From contig DUPV01000024.1 of assembly GCA_012838135.1 (NCBI GenBank), forward strand, positions 1 through 64,000: a stretch of 64,000 nt of DNA, read 5' to 3'. Shown in pieces: positions 41,709 to 57,820 of this stretch; the stretch's first letter is position 1; the number at the start of each line of letters is the position of its first letter. The notes below the pieces were generated by a model that was not told the DNA's origin, ran no database searches, and worked only from the letters and a program-made list of their open reading frames with translations. The position numbers and the translations under genes are program-made. Source of the stretch: Clostridiaceae bacterium (lineage in GTDB: Bacteria; Bacillota; Clostridia; Saccharofermentanales; DTU023).

Positions 41709-42338
41709 TTATCTGATAAAATCCGTTCTAACCTTTTTCTCTTTAGCAGGTGCGTAGGCAAGTCCCTGCTCACGCATTTTCAGTTGCCACACCATGTTCT
41801 TTCCCAAAATTCGCATAATCTGCTTACCCTCTTCATCCTGTTGGACCTCACCGGCGCTACGACCATGTATTACACCCCAATAATTGGATGTTGCGACCAT
41901 CATTTCGCAATATTGCAGATACTTGTGCATGATATTCAGTGCGCTGCTTCCGCCTGTTCGCCTTACCGCAGTTACTGCAGCTCCCACTTTATGAAACAGC
42001 AAATCCTCTGCGTTCCCCGCAATATAAACTAAGCGATCACAAAACGACTTCATGGCACCCGTAATTCCTGAAAAATGAACCGGTGACCCGAGAAGTATGC
42101 CGTCTGCTTCTCGTATTTTTTCAATCGCCTCGTTCAGCCCATCGTCTTTGAATGCTGAGCAAAAGCCCGTATCCGTATAACATTTACCGCAACCTATACA
42201 ACTCCTGATGGGTTTGTTACCAATTTGAATTATTTCGGTTTCGATATTTTCCTTTTCCAGCTCTTCAAAAACCATACGCATGGCTTGATAAGTATTCCCT
42301 TTAGCATTAGGGCTCCCATTAATTCCGATAACTTTCAT
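41709..42338 (-). CDS. Flavodoxin-like NAD(P)H-dependent oxidoreductase / iron-sulfur flavoprotein
   Basis: 209 aa; GINGSPNAKGNTYQAM, CIGCGKCYTDTGFC, ADGILLGSPVHFSGITGAMKSFCDR. Confidence 0.88.
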   Translation of the reverse strand: MKVIGINGSPNAKGNTYQAMRMVFEELEKENIETEIIQIGNKPIRSCIGCGKCYTDTGFCSAFKDDGLNEAIEKIREADGILLGSPVHFSGITGAMKSFCDRLVYIAGNAEDLLFHKVGAAVTAVRRTGGSSALNIMHKYLQYCEMMVATSNYWGVIHGRSAGEVQQDEEGKQIMRILGKNMVWQLKMREQGLAYAPAKEKKVRTDFIR

Positions 42339-53435: not shown

Positions 53436-53512
<77 letters not shown>

Positions 53513-53566: not shown

Positions 53567-53859
53567 CCTAAAAAAAGACAATCTATTGTTATTTGAAATT
53601 TTTATCCAATTTTTAAATTGTTCGGCTTAATGTTTAATCGATCAATGACCATTTACTAAGTTGTTTTATTGTCATAATTATCATTGGTTGAAAGAACTGC
53701 TGATTTATCCATTTGTTCAAATTAATTCAGATAATTAAAAACATTTTTCAAAACGACCCCGATTTTAAAAAACTTCCTACGAAACCTATAACTATAGACC
53801 AAAAACAATAACAAGGGTTTATAAAAATTAAATTCAAAATATTAAAGGAGAACAAAAAA

Positions 53860-54780
53860 ATGAATAAAAAATTAAGCTTGTTAGCAATCATTTCGCTGGT
53901 GTTGGCACTTTTCCTCACAAGTTGTGCAGGCCAAGCAAAATCAAATCCTAAAATGGAAGCAAAGGATACTGAAAGAGGTGTAATCGTACTTTCTGTAAAT
54001 CCTGAAATCGAAATTGAATACGATAAAGACGGTAAGGTAACCGATGTTCGCGGTTCAAACCAAGACGGTACAAAAATTGTAAAAGATTATGATAATTATA
54101 TTGGCAAGGATTCAACTGTCGTTCTTCAAGAATTAGTTGATAAAATCAATGATGCAGGATATTTTATTCAAGAAGTTGGTGAATCAGAAAAAGTGTTAAC
54201 TTTACAATTAAAAGAAGGTTCTTTCTTACCAAATGATAATTTTATTGCTAATATTGGAAAAGCCGTCGAAGAAAAAGTTGGCGAATTAAATGTTGATGTA
54301 GAAGTCGGTACTGACAGCAATGACAAAAACAAAGATAAGAAAGATGAGAAAAAAGACAATGTCTCCAACCAGGATGACAAAAATGACAACAAAGACAAAA
54401 ACGATAAAAAAGATAAAAACGATAAAAAGGATAAAAACGATAAAAACGATAAAAAGGATAATGTCTCCAATCAGGATGATAAAAAAGACAACAAGAACTC
54501 TATAACAATTCCGGTAGCACCTGCCAAAAATCATACAGACTATGATGACACCGATTATGGAACAACGCCTGCAACAACAGCTGCTCCGACAGTAGATGAC
54601 ACCGATTATGATGACACCGATTATGCTCCGACTGCAGCACCGACTGTTGCTCCGACAGTAGATGACACTGATTATGATGATACCGACTATGCTCCGACTG
54701 CAGCTCAAACTGCTGCTCCGACAGTAGATGATTCGGACTATGATGACTCAAACTACGACGATTCAGATTATGATGACTAG
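53860..54780 (+). CDS. Lipoprotein with RsgI-like domain, Lys/Asp-rich tract and DDTDY repeats
   Basis: Lipobox FLTSCAG; VIVLSVNPEIEIEYDKDGKVTDVRGSNQDG resembles RsgI extracytoplasmic domain; KDKNDKKDKNDK; APTVDDTDYDDTDY repeats. Confidence 0.75.
   Translation: MNKKLSLLAIISLVLALFLTSCAGQAKSNPKMEAKDTERGVIVLSVNPEIEIEYDKDGKVTDVRGSNQDGTKIVKDYDNYIGKDSTVVLQELVDKINDAGYFIQEVGESEKVLTLQLKEGSFLPNDNFIANIGKAVEEKVGELNVDVEVGTDSNDKNKDKKDEKKDNVSNQDDKNDNKDKNDKKDKNDKKDKNDKNDKKDNVSNQDDKKDNKNSITIPVAPAKNHTDYDDTDYGTTPATTAAPTVDDTDYDDTDYAPTAAPTVAPTVDDTDYDDTDYAPTAAQTAAPTVDDSDYDDSNYDDSDYDD
54583..54777 (+). repeat. 66-bp (22-aa) in-frame tandem repeat, about 3 copies
   Basis: APTVDDTDYDDTDYAPTAAPTV / APTVDDTDYDDTDYAPTAAQTA / APTVDDSDYDDSNYDDSDYDD at 54583, 54649, 54715. 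Confidence 0.9.
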
Positions 54781-54871
54781 AATTTTAATTAATGATCACT
54801 ATCTGAACAAAAACCGATCATAAAACACGCAAAACAAAAACTGTTTTGAACAATCCGGAAATGCTTTTTAT

Positions 54872-55564
54872 ATGATTAAGAAAAAAGGAATTTTAAAACT
54901 ACGTAACGAAAAAAAATATAATATCAATCATGCAGACGCTTTCATACTAAGCCAAACATTGAAAAGGGTTTTCCGGCATGATAATAATTCTGACTCACAC
55001 GGTAATTACCGTGTGAGTAGTTTATATTTTGACACCCTTTACGATAAAGCTTTAATTCAAAATATTTCCGGGATAAATCAACGAGAAAAATTTCGCATAC
55101 GTTATTATAACAACGATTTTTCCTTTATCCGTTTAGAACGTAAAATAAAAATCAACGGTAAATGTGCAAAACAAACAGCACTCCTGGCCCAATCTGAAGT
55201 TCAACAAATTCTCAACGGAGAAATTGATTTTCTTCTACAAAAAGAAGATGCCCTGACAATTGAATTTTATTCAAAATTAAAAGGACAATTATTAAAACCG
55301 AAAACTATCGTGACTTATGACCGGGAGGCGTTTATTTATCACCCCGGCAATGTCCGAATTACCATAGATCGCAACTTAAGAACAACAACCAAAACTGATG
55401 ATTTTTTACAAATAAATAAGCACATCAATGTTTCAGACGGACTTGCTGTTTTGGAAGTAAAATATGATGAATTTCTGCCGGATCTCGTAAAGATGGCAGT
55501 CTGCTTGAACAATCGCCCGCTCACGGCTTATTCCAAGTATACTATGTGCAGAAAATACGATTAA
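54872..55564 (+). CDS. VTC-domain polyphosphate polymerase-like protein
   Basis: 230 aa; LRNEKKYNINHADAF, SSLYFDTLYDKAL, REKFRIRYYNND, RLERKIKINGKCAKQTA, TIDRNLRT, LEVKYDEFLP. Confidence 0.88.
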   Translation: MIKKKGILKLRNEKKYNINHADAFILSQTLKRVFRHDNNSDSHGNYRVSSLYFDTLYDKALIQNISGINQREKFRIRYYNNDFSFIRLERKIKINGKCAKQTALLAQSEVQQILNGEIDFLLQKEDALTIEFYSKLKGQLLKPKTIVTYDREAFIYHPGNVRITIDRNLRTTTKTDDFLQINKHINVSDGLAVLEVKYDEFLPDLVKMAVCLNNRPLTAYSKYTMCRKYD

Positions 55565-55656
55565 TAATTTATAAAGTATAAAACAGTAATCAGAAAATCA
55601 GACATAGAAATATAGAATCTAATAAATCTACAAATTAATAAACAGGAGACAGTTTC

Positions 55657-56340
55657 ATGTATATGACAATTACCTTTCAGGACATTTTCAAATCAAGTTT
55701 TTTAGAAAATATCAATGCAGTTCCGCTCATGGATATGTTAATTACATTGTTACTCTCATTCGTACTCGGTATATTCATCTTTTTTATTTATAAAAAAACA
55801 TATTCCGGTGTAATGTATTCTGCCAGCTTCGGAATCACCTTGATCGCTCTCAGCATGATTACCGCACTCTTGATTTTGGCTGTAACCAGTAATGTTGTTT
55901 TATCACTCGGTATGGTCGGTGCACTCTCAATCGTGCGTTTCCGAACCGCTATCAAAGAACCCTCCGACATCGCTTTTTTATTTTGGAGTATTGCTGTCGG
56001 TATCGTACTTGCTGCAGGCTTGATTCCTCTCGCCTTGTTCGGCAGTTTTTTCATCGGAATAATTATGCTGATTTTTGCCAATACAAAAACTCATGAACAA
56101 CCATATATACTGGTCGTACACTGCATTGATGAAGATGTTGAAAAAGAAATTCTCAGCCATATCAACGGTTCAGTCAAACGATTTTCTTTAAAGAGTAAAA
56201 CTATCATGCCCGAACAGATTGAGTTGAATTATGAGATTAGATTGAAATCTGCCGACAGTTCATTTATTAATGAATTAGCTGCCATTAAAGGTGTCAATCA
56301 TACCGTGATGGTTTCGTACAACGGCGATTATATGAGTTAA
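55657..56340 (+). CDS. DUF4956-family membrane protein
   Basis: 227 aa; SLGMVGALSIVRFRTAIKEPSDIAFLFWSIAVGI motif; after VTC and before CotH. Confidence 0.85.
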   Translation: MYMTITFQDIFKSSFLENINAVPLMDMLITLLLSFVLGIFIFFIYKKTYSGVMYSASFGITLIALSMITALLILAVTSNVVLSLGMVGALSIVRFRTAIKEPSDIAFLFWSIAVGIVLAAGLIPLALFGSFFIGIIMLIFANTKTHEQPYILVVHCIDEDVEKEILSHINGSVKRFSLKSKTIMPEQIELNYEIRLKSADSSFINELAAIKGVNHTVMVSYNGDYMS

Positions 56341-56416
56341 TCAGGTCGCAACAAAGAGTCTGCGTCATCACAACAAAATTTGTAAAATTTAAAAATAAAG
56401 TCACCGCCTAGTAAAA

Positions 56417-57820
56417 ATGTTAAAACACAAACACATTGACAAAATAATCATTGTAATTTTGCTTGTTGCTTCCCTCTTTACCATTCTATTCATGAACGGG
56501 AATCTGGGTGTTCTGCCTGCCGGACAAAATCCCGGCTATGAGCATCGTTTGTTCGATGATAGTCGCGTTCATGAGATAAATATTTATTGTGAACAATGGG
56601 ATGAAATTCTCACAGATCCGCGAGCAGAACAATATAAACATGCAGATATTGAAATCGACGGTGAGCGTTTTAATAATGTCGGTTTCAGAACAAAAGGCAA
56701 CAATTCTTTGCGTTTGACACATAAATACGGCTTAGAACGATATAGCTTTAAAATCGAATTTGACCATTATGCTGCCAACAGTTATTACGGCTTGGATAAA
56801 TTCTCTTTAGATTCTTCTTTCCAAGATAACAGTTACTTAAAATCTTACATTACCTATGACATGATGGCCTTTATGGGTGTTCCTTCTCCCCTGACCAGCT
56901 ATGTTTGGTTGACAATTAACGATCAGGCTTGGGGACTTTATTTAGCAATTGAAGAACCGGAACATGCTTTTGCCCGAAGAAATTTCGGTGTCAGTCATGG
57001 TCAACTCTATAAACCTGACTATAAAAATATTGATGCCGAAAATGCTGATGTTGCTTTAAGATATATTGACGATAATCCGGAAAATTATGACAATATTTTT
57101 CGTAAAGCAAAATTTGATCCGACCGAACAGGATAAAAAGAATTTAATCCGGGCCTTACAGATTTTATCCACCGGAGAAAATTTAACTGATGCCGTAAATA
57201 TTGATTCTGTCTTAAAATTCTTTCCGGTACAGGTTTTTGTCGTAAATCTGGACGGTTATTTAGGTAAAAACGGCCACAATTATTTTCTCTATGAAGAAAA
57301 CGGAATTATCAGTATGCTGCCGTGGGATTACAACCTGGCTTTCGGAACTTATTCACTCGGTATGCCGGAACCGATTAATGATGCCGAACTCTATATCAAT
57401 CATCCGATTGTTACGCCGGCTGCAGGTGAAATCATGTTCAAGCGTCCTCTATATCATCATCTGATGAAAAATCCGGATTGTTTTGCCCAATATAAAGAGA
57501 ACTTCGATTATCTGATTCGCGAATATTTTGAATCAGGCTACTTTTCACTGAAAGTTACTGAAACAATTGCCATGATCTCGCCCTATGTCAAAAAAGATCC
57601 GACTGCTTTTTGTTCCTTTGAAGATTATAAAATCGGTGTTCAAACATTTACCGACTTTTGTCTTTTACGAGCCGAAAGCATCCGCGGTCAACTTAACGGA
57701 ACCATACCCGCCACTATTGCCGGTCAAATTACTGCTCGGGAAGAAAATCCCGATGTATTTATTGATGCATCCAACGTTTGGCTGCCTGATCTCGGTGAAG
57801 TCGCCGATTTAAAAAAATGA
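56417..57820 (+). CDS. CotH-family protein kinase
   Basis: 467 aa; VGFRTKGNNSLR, YSFKIEFDHY, YGLDKFSLDSSFQD, WGLYLAIEEPEHAF, VVNLDGYLGKNGHNYFLYEENGIISMLPWDYNLAFG. Confidence 0.92.
   Translation: MLKHKHIDKIIIVILLVASLFTILFMNGNLGVLPAGQNPGYEHRLFDDSRVHEINIYCEQWDEILTDPRAEQYKHADIEIDGERFNNVGFRTKGNNSLRLTHKYGLERYSFKIEFDHYAANSYYGLDKFSLDSSFQDNSYLKSYITYDMMAFMGVPSPLTSYVWLTINDQAWGLYLAIEEPEHAFARRNFGVSHGQLYKPDYKNIDAENADVALRYIDDNPENYDNIFRKAKFDPTEQDKKNLIRALQILSTGENLTDAVNIDSVLKFFPVQVFVVNLDGYLGKNGHNYFLYEENGIISMLPWDYNLAFGTYSLGMPEPINDAELYINHPIVTPAAGEIMFKRPLYHHLMKNPDCFAQYKENFDYLIREYFESGYFSLKVTETIAMISPYVKKDPTAFCSFEDYKIGVQTFTDFCLLRAESIRGQLNGTIPATIAGQITAREENPDVFIDASNVWLPDLGEVADLKK

Follow-up and report, generated by a model that had tools for sequence, protein, structure and literature searches.

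We describe here a four-gene operon in a 64,000-nucleotide stretch of a Clostridiaceae bacterium (GenBank assembly GCA_012838135.1, contig DUPV01000024.1, positions 1 to 64,000; hereafter the window), which joins an RsgI-like lipoprotein, a VTC-type enzyme, a DUF4956 membrane protein and a CotH kinase. The operon is conserved in many Bacillota under a common sigma-I-type promoter, the active-site residues of its enzymes are intact, its lipoprotein is enriched in a C-terminal array of [Ser/Thr]-x-Tyr motifs, and this array is lost where the enzymes are lost. With moderate confidence, we read the locus as a sigma-I-controlled extracytoplasmic phosphorylation module whose substrate would be the lipoprotein array. 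An earlier reading of the same DNA (the original prediction) had proposed a surface phospho- or polyphosphate-modification system. The features discussed below are as follows.

53756..53789, + strand: sigma-I-type promoter, ACCCCG-N18-CGAAACCTAT, 71-104 bases before the lipoprotein start
53860..54780, + strand: RsgI-like (SEAL-domain) lipoprotein, 306 amino acids, PF23750
53998..54003, + strand: Asn47-Pro48, predicted SEAL autocleavage site, from invariance and model position
54319..54498, + strand: Lys/Asp-rich low-complexity stretch, confined to the genus and absent from the homologues of other genera
54535..54771, + strand: nine [Ser/Thr]-x-Tyr motifs (TDY six times, SDY twice, SNY once), proposed CotH acceptor region, from the sequence pattern
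54872..55564, + strand: VTC/CYTH-type triphosphate-tunnel enzyme, 230 amino acids, soluble, PF09359
55657..56340, + strand: DUF4956 membrane protein, 227 amino acids, PF16316
56417..57820, + strand: CotH kinase, 467 amino acids, PF08757

Conservation of the four-gene operon

A neighbourhood survey for a linked lipoprotein found it conserved with the other three genes, which is the opposite of one of the two outcomes that the original prediction had named as its refutation. Lipoprotein, VTC, DUF4956 and CotH genes stand together in several genera of the window's family, and the order sigI-rsgI-lipoprotein-VTC-DUF4956-cotH was found in Lachnospiraceae, Oscillospiraceae and Erysipelotrichia, in a sample found through DUF4956. 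The sigma genes of these operons match SigI models best, with scores just under the curated cut-offs. Because this gene order recurs in many genomes, it lies far beyond chance. Among 104 DUF4956 loci, VTC was close by in 103, CotH in 90 and the lipoprotein in 40. All lipoprotein-linked DUF4956 proteins (40/40) fall into one supported clade of 48 (96/88), within which the VTC-DUF4956-CotH order is nearly invariant, and the lipoprotein label fits the DUF4956 tree far better than shuffled labels do. The eight other members of the clade comprise six loci truncated by the ends of their contigs and a pair from Massilimicrobiota with a different, array-bearing SEAL lipoprotein.

In the window itself, the four consecutive plus-strand open reading frames lie where the first reading had placed them, separated from lipoprotein to CotH by 91, 92 and 76 bases. 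All four proteins exceed the curated Pfam cut-offs (lipoprotein: RsgI_M, PF23750, 56.4 bits, cut-off 25.3; VTC: PF09359, 130.7 bits, cut-off 23; DUF4956: PF16316, 46.7 bits, cut-off 30.6; CotH: PF08757, 188 bits, cut-off 23.8), confirming both the genes and the families first assigned to them.

The same genome carries a second VTC-DUF4956-cotH locus (L006:7175-9173; G000:C40) with a histidine kinase upstream. This locus has no lipoprotein, and its DUF4956 falls outside the lipoprotein-linked clade. Two overlapping frames make up its cotH, through a frameshift or an assembly error, at a place where relatives have one frame of 538-679 amino acids. Elsewhere, two tandem lipoprotein genes with one sigma-I-type promoter each were observed (L015:4917-7430, G037). 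Upstream of the operon, at positions 53438-53512 of the window, a tRNA-like sequence is succeeded by a stem-loop that resembles a terminator, and the lipoprotein genes of L012 and L017 have a stretch like it before them. The operon as a mobile element was considered and is unsupported, as CotH relatives occur on three plasmids only, all below 60% identity.

A shared [Ser/Thr]-x-Tyr array

The C-terminal [Ser/Thr]-x-Tyr array is common to the lipoprotein and the RsgI anti-sigma factor. In the last 100 amino acids of 30 linked lipoproteins, 290/308 Tyr residues have Ser or Thr at -2. Across 71 linked proteins (lipoproteins and RsgI), we counted 566 motifs against 129 ± 9 in shuffles, which excludes an origin by chance from an acidic, Tyr-rich composition. 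The surroundings of the motif vary between tails (DDSDYDD, DGVTDYNDTDYGPNN, GNSGYGDSGY, DNTNYDNTNY, DDSPYDD) while S/T-x-Y stays constant. Neither is the array a general feature of RsgI-type proteins, since only 4/128 RsgI_M proteins from 75 Clostridia-class genomes carry at least 4 motifs per 50 amino acids, all four in cotH loci. Its presence in every CotH genome is likewise excluded, as RsgI lacks arrays where CotH lies outside this operon type. In two Massilimicrobiota loci (L090:3549-4679, L094:241-1518), a different SEAL-PepSY lipoprotein with NTNYDNTNY tail repeats takes the place of the usual one, apparently as a new carrier on which the array was built up again.

Tyr is swapped for Phe or His in some tails (L018, L013, L010) and Ser/Thr is kept, which suggests the Ser/Thr hydroxyl as the predicted acceptor and the aromatic residue at +2 as the recognition element. 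The enzymes might alternatively modify the array in another way, with Tyr as the acceptor, with CotH transferring another group, or with polyphosphate bound or attached. Some other kinase-fold enzymes do catalyse different transfers, Tyr is nearly as constant as Ser/Thr, and the group transferred would in that case be made by VTC and DUF4956. We nevertheless consider such a modification unlikely, given that Ser/Thr persists in the several tails where Phe or His replaces Tyr, that the B. subtilis CotH phosphorylates Ser/Thr (PMC7821199), and that its catalytic Asp residues are conserved here.

Loss of the array together with the enzymes

For the co-loss count, we scored [ST]-x-[YFH], i.e., Phe and His as Tyr, with a threshold of at least 8 per lipoprotein. 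All lipoproteins from loci with module genes reach it (45/45). Two genomes, G025 from the window's family and G549 from another family, have the lipoprotein with CotH and DUF4956 absent from the whole assembly (VTC absence was checked in G025; G549 was checked for CotH and DUF4956). Their lipoprotein tails hold 0 and 1 motif, respectively, and are still long and acidic (47-74% Asp/Glu); the RsgI tails of both genomes also lack the array. By simple counting, with relatedness ignored, 45/45 versus 0/2 corresponds to one in 1081. The loss in G025 is precise, with the three enzyme genes gone from between the lipoprotein gene and a gene that shares 89-92% identity with the one following cotH in close relatives. 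RsgI and the lipoprotein of G025 are otherwise 66-81% identical over the aligned parts, and SDYDDSDYGE of the G027 RsgI reads SDHNDSEHGE at the equivalent place in the G025 RsgI. A phylum-wide search for further natural losses in 399 genomes yielded G549 as the sole new case.

The array could also be a non-covalent ligand or binding element, for metal, cell wall or a host surface, in an operon merely co-inherited with the enzymes. The tails are indeed acidic and repetitive, and their acidity outlasts the loss of the enzymes. We regard this as very unlikely, for it leaves unexplained why [ST]-x-Y alone goes with the enzymes in two lineages, and why the RsgI array, encoded elsewhere, is present with the enzymes and absent without them.

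In G118, cotH directly follows the lipoprotein gene, which still encodes the array, and VTC and DUF4956 are found on other contigs. The persistence of the array beside an adjoining cotH points to CotH as its likely partner. This arrangement also bears on a further alternative, namely that VTC and DUF4956 form a unit of their own, for polyphosphate or ion homeostasis, and CotH alone acts on the lipoprotein. VTC and DUF4956 match the same three control genomes and CotH two of these, several sampled genomes have VTC without CotH, and the G118 array persists with cotH directly after the lipoprotein gene. On the other side stand the near-invariant order of the three genes in the lipoprotein clade and the fact that G118 retains VTC and DUF4956 elsewhere. 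We therefore take the independent unit as a serious possibility, albeit one that we lean away from.

Domain structure of the lipoprotein

The lipoprotein has a lipobox, LTSC, with the lipidation Cys at position 22, and Cys22, Asn47 and Pro48 are invariant in 27 lipoprotein homologues. In the AlphaFold2 model, residues 36-152 are folded and the tail is of low confidence (long, disordered). The best match of the model in the PDB, according to Foldseek, is the SEAL domain of B. subtilis RsgI (8t9n). Asn47-Pro48 lies in the turn joining strands 1 and 2 of the model, and the alignment with 8t9n begins at the Asn-Pro of that chain. Asn-Pro is the motif where the SEAL domains of RsgI proteins undergo self-cleavage. 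The protein has no PF12791 match, i.e., no cytoplasmic sigma-binding N domain of RsgI, the lipobox signal standing in its place, and no transmembrane helix follows the RsgI central domain. Therefore, the label "RsgI-like" was apt: the RsgI_M domain and lipobox are present, and the protein, lacking the sigma-binding domain and the helix, is not an anti-sigma factor.

Homologues from other genera carry PepSY domains in place of the Lys/Asp-rich stretch, or lack any counterpart to it. Several lineages (L009, L130, L095 and other lipoproteins) have PepSY insertions that separate the SEAL domain from the array, with a PF03413 match in the L009 and L130 lipoproteins. Since the stretch is limited to the genus, polyphosphorylation of its Lys residues was rejected as a shared mechanism, and the stretch is unlikely to be the modification target. 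The polyphosphate attachment to the lipoprotein raised in the original prediction finds no support.

Sigma-I promoter and the sigI-rsgI locus

The pattern ACCCC-N19-CGNANNCTAT has its sole exact match in the window at 53756-53789, just before the lipoprotein gene, and with one mismatch allowed gives 2 matches in the window versus 0.09 expected by chance. The one-mismatch match, at 42164-42197 (+), has no obvious plus-strand gene downstream. In 2.05 Mb of fetched loci, the pattern gave 63 distinct matches against 0.7 expected by composition. Wherever a gene was called downstream of a match, it was a lipoprotein gene or one of the sigI type; as these loci were picked around such genes, this is specificity within them rather than a genome-wide regulon survey. 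A scan for sigma-70 promoters returned nothing beyond chance. The Bacillales sigma-I consensus is ACCCCC--AA-15N-CGAA (PMC4711584), and the window pattern agrees with it in the ACCCCC and CGAA elements. At 53756-53789, ACCCC and CGWA stand at the fixed spacing that marks the sigma-I regulon, and the operon would appear to be under sigma-I control. Before the lipoprotein gene of another genome (L258:4906-5232, G215), four tandem sigma-I-type matches lie about 105 bases apart; other loci have two.

The sigI-rsgI pair of this genome lies on a separate contig, C61, and beside the lipoprotein gene in most relatives. The RsgI on C61 has a weak PF12791 match, below the cut-off. The lipoprotein is no separate addition to the three enzyme genes: its gene stands third in a sigma-I operon, and its array is shared with the anti-sigma factor RsgI. 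The first reading had remarked on neither this locus on another contig nor the promoter, the [ST]-x-Y array and the autocleavage motif.

Enzyme active sites and topology

The enzymes look competent, to judge from their active-site residues, which are intact. Residues R264, R266, K281, R361, R373 and E426 of Vtc4 correspond to R75, R77, K91, R151, R162 and E195 of the VTC protein, and all six mapped residues are invariant in 14 VTC homologues. For CotH, the best PDB match is 5jd9 (E = 8e-25). Residues D228 and D251 of B. subtilis CotH, the latter of which we take to be a metal-binding Asp, correspond to D279 (57251-57253) and D304 (57326-57328), both invariant in 20 homologues. D228 is the catalytic residue of the B. 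subtilis enzyme (PMC7821199).

CotH has one N-terminal hydrophobic helix, at residues 10-28, as a membrane anchor. The VTC protein consists of the VTC domain alone (230 amino acids), with no SPX domain and no hydrophobic or membrane helix. Given the single helix of CotH and the lack of any in VTC, the catalytic domain of the kinase is predicted to be extracytoplasmic and VTC to be cytoplasmic. The sigma-I-type promoter and the membrane anchor of CotH together argue against a spore-coat role. The AlphaFold2 model of DUF4956 shows a helical membrane part and a C-terminal ACT-like domain in an MgtC-like layout, with the C-terminal domain of MgtC (2lqj) as the best Foldseek match (E = 8.4e-4). By profile, the protein falls below the MgtC cut-offs (PF02308: 13.4 bits, cut-off 31.4; NCBIfam MgtC/SapB: 29.2, cut-off 214).

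Proposed phosphorylation module

In the reading that we favour, RsgI, a membrane anti-sigma factor, would hold sigma-I, and sigma-I would transcribe the operon from 53756-53789, as the promoter pattern indicates. Membrane-anchored CotH, facing outward, would phosphorylate the Ser/Thr residues of the lipoprotein array, which we consider quite probable, and probably those of the RsgI array too. FAM20C, a secretory-pathway kinase distantly related to CotH, acts on acidic secreted proteins, in which it recognises S-x-E. CotH may read the aromatic residue at +2 in much the same way, a predicted recognition in which Tyr in the array takes the place of the Glu that FAM20C finds at +2. The VTC-type enzyme would make polyphosphate in the cytoplasm and DUF4956 would help its outward passage, the weakest step of the scheme, and the exported polyphosphate could serve as the phosphate donor for a kinase acting where ATP is scarce. 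Synthesis and export of such a donor by the VTC-DUF4956 pair is, to us, a tentative proposal that falls somewhat short of an even chance.

Modification of the RsgI tail might further change the release of the cleaved SEAL domain and hence sigma-I activity. Because the same array stands on RsgI and on the lipoprotein, the system may monitor how far it has itself been modified. In our estimate, however, it is rather unlikely that the RsgI array feeds back on sigma-I. The same doubt applies to the full self-sensing circuit, in which a motif-specific, polyphosphate-fed kinase would phosphorylate both the lipoprotein and the RsgI sensor tail, and transcription would follow the balance of kinase, donor and substrate.

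Several points weigh against this scheme. The co-loss comprises two independent losses only, both in fragmented assemblies, and most of the genomes are metagenome assemblies, so that absence calls carry error. In G034, lipoprotein, VTC and array are present and no CotH was found, on a contig that ends right after VTC. VTC and DUF4956 are also found together without CotH. Known CotH sites lie in Lys/Arg/Ser-rich repeats, versus the acidic S-x-Y arrays here. Finally, modification of the lipoprotein is a prediction from sequence, and polyphosphate synthesis by bacterial VTC and transport by DUF4956 are putative functions. The surface phospho-modification first proposed for this locus thus stands in part: the linkage of the lipoprotein and the disappearance of the motif with the enzymes agree with it, but the predicted acceptor is the [ST]-x-Tyr array and not a general richness in charged residues.

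Relation to known systems and significance

In B. subtilis, CotH phosphorylates the Ser-rich repeats of CotB and CotG, which are encoded by neighbouring genes (PMC7821199). Our operon resembles this spore-coat system in its conserved catalytic Asp residues and in a kinase encoded beside a disordered, hydroxyl-rich repeat protein (PMC7821199). It differs in its predicted substrate, a membrane lipoprotein whose [ST]-x-Y repeats are acidic, in having a sigma-I promoter in place of spore-coat gene control, and in including the VTC-DUF4956 pair. With the SigI/RsgI systems of Bacillus and cellulolytic Clostridia, the operon shares the sigma family, the promoter type and a SEAL domain with Asn-Pro (PMC4711584, PMC12203970). 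Where those systems have cellulosome or heat-stress genes as their output and a sugar-binding module as the RsgI tail, this one has a surface kinase module and an [ST]-x-Y array, respectively. It also has a second SEAL protein, a lipoprotein that lacks the sigma-binding domain. The triphosphate-tunnel residues of VTC are conserved as in yeast Vtc4 (PMC9911596), and the coupling of polyphosphate synthesis to membrane translocation in yeast VTC offers an analogy for VTC plus DUF4956 (PMC9911596). In contrast to the yeast complex, the enzyme here has neither SPX nor membrane helices, and DUF4956 is MgtC-like in layout rather than a VTC membrane domain.

The linkage of the three enzymes, which the original prediction suspected to be recurrent, was already published: genes for CotH, polyphosphate polymerase and DUF4956 (and DUF4832) occur as accessory genes at Gram-positive Pel loci (PMC7112168). 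These clusters have the three enzyme families in common with our operon, and no SEAL lipoprotein, sigma-I or array is described there. NELoc-2 of C. perfringens holds genes for a sigma factor, an anti-sigma domain/cell-wall protein, VTC and CotH together (PMC2879425, PMC11677781) and, judged by gene content, is probably a published, uninterpreted example of this operon type. Proteins of about 222-226 amino acids beside VTC in NELoc-2 are annotated as tubulin/FtsZ (PMC2879425), and these may be DUF4956 proteins. With the Pel-locus and NELoc-2 reports at hand, the enzyme linkage is not new. In the literature searched, we found neither an RsgI-CotH operon link nor a description of the lipoprotein, although a prior SEAL/RsgI description is not excluded; its standing as the novel component is qualified to that extent. 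The [ST]-x-Y motif, the shared RsgI array, the common sigma-I promoter and the co-loss were likewise not found in that literature.

CotH is common outside spore formers, mostly without a known substrate, and the purpose of the VTC-DUF4956-CotH set is open in the literature found. Here, a predicted substrate, a motif, a promoter and two natural knock-outs make the kinase-substrate pairing directly testable. Polyphosphate as the donor, if true, would explain how a kinase outside the Gram-positive membrane is supplied with phosphate, and SigI/RsgI signalling would, if the scheme holds, gain covalent modification as its input in place of sugar binding.

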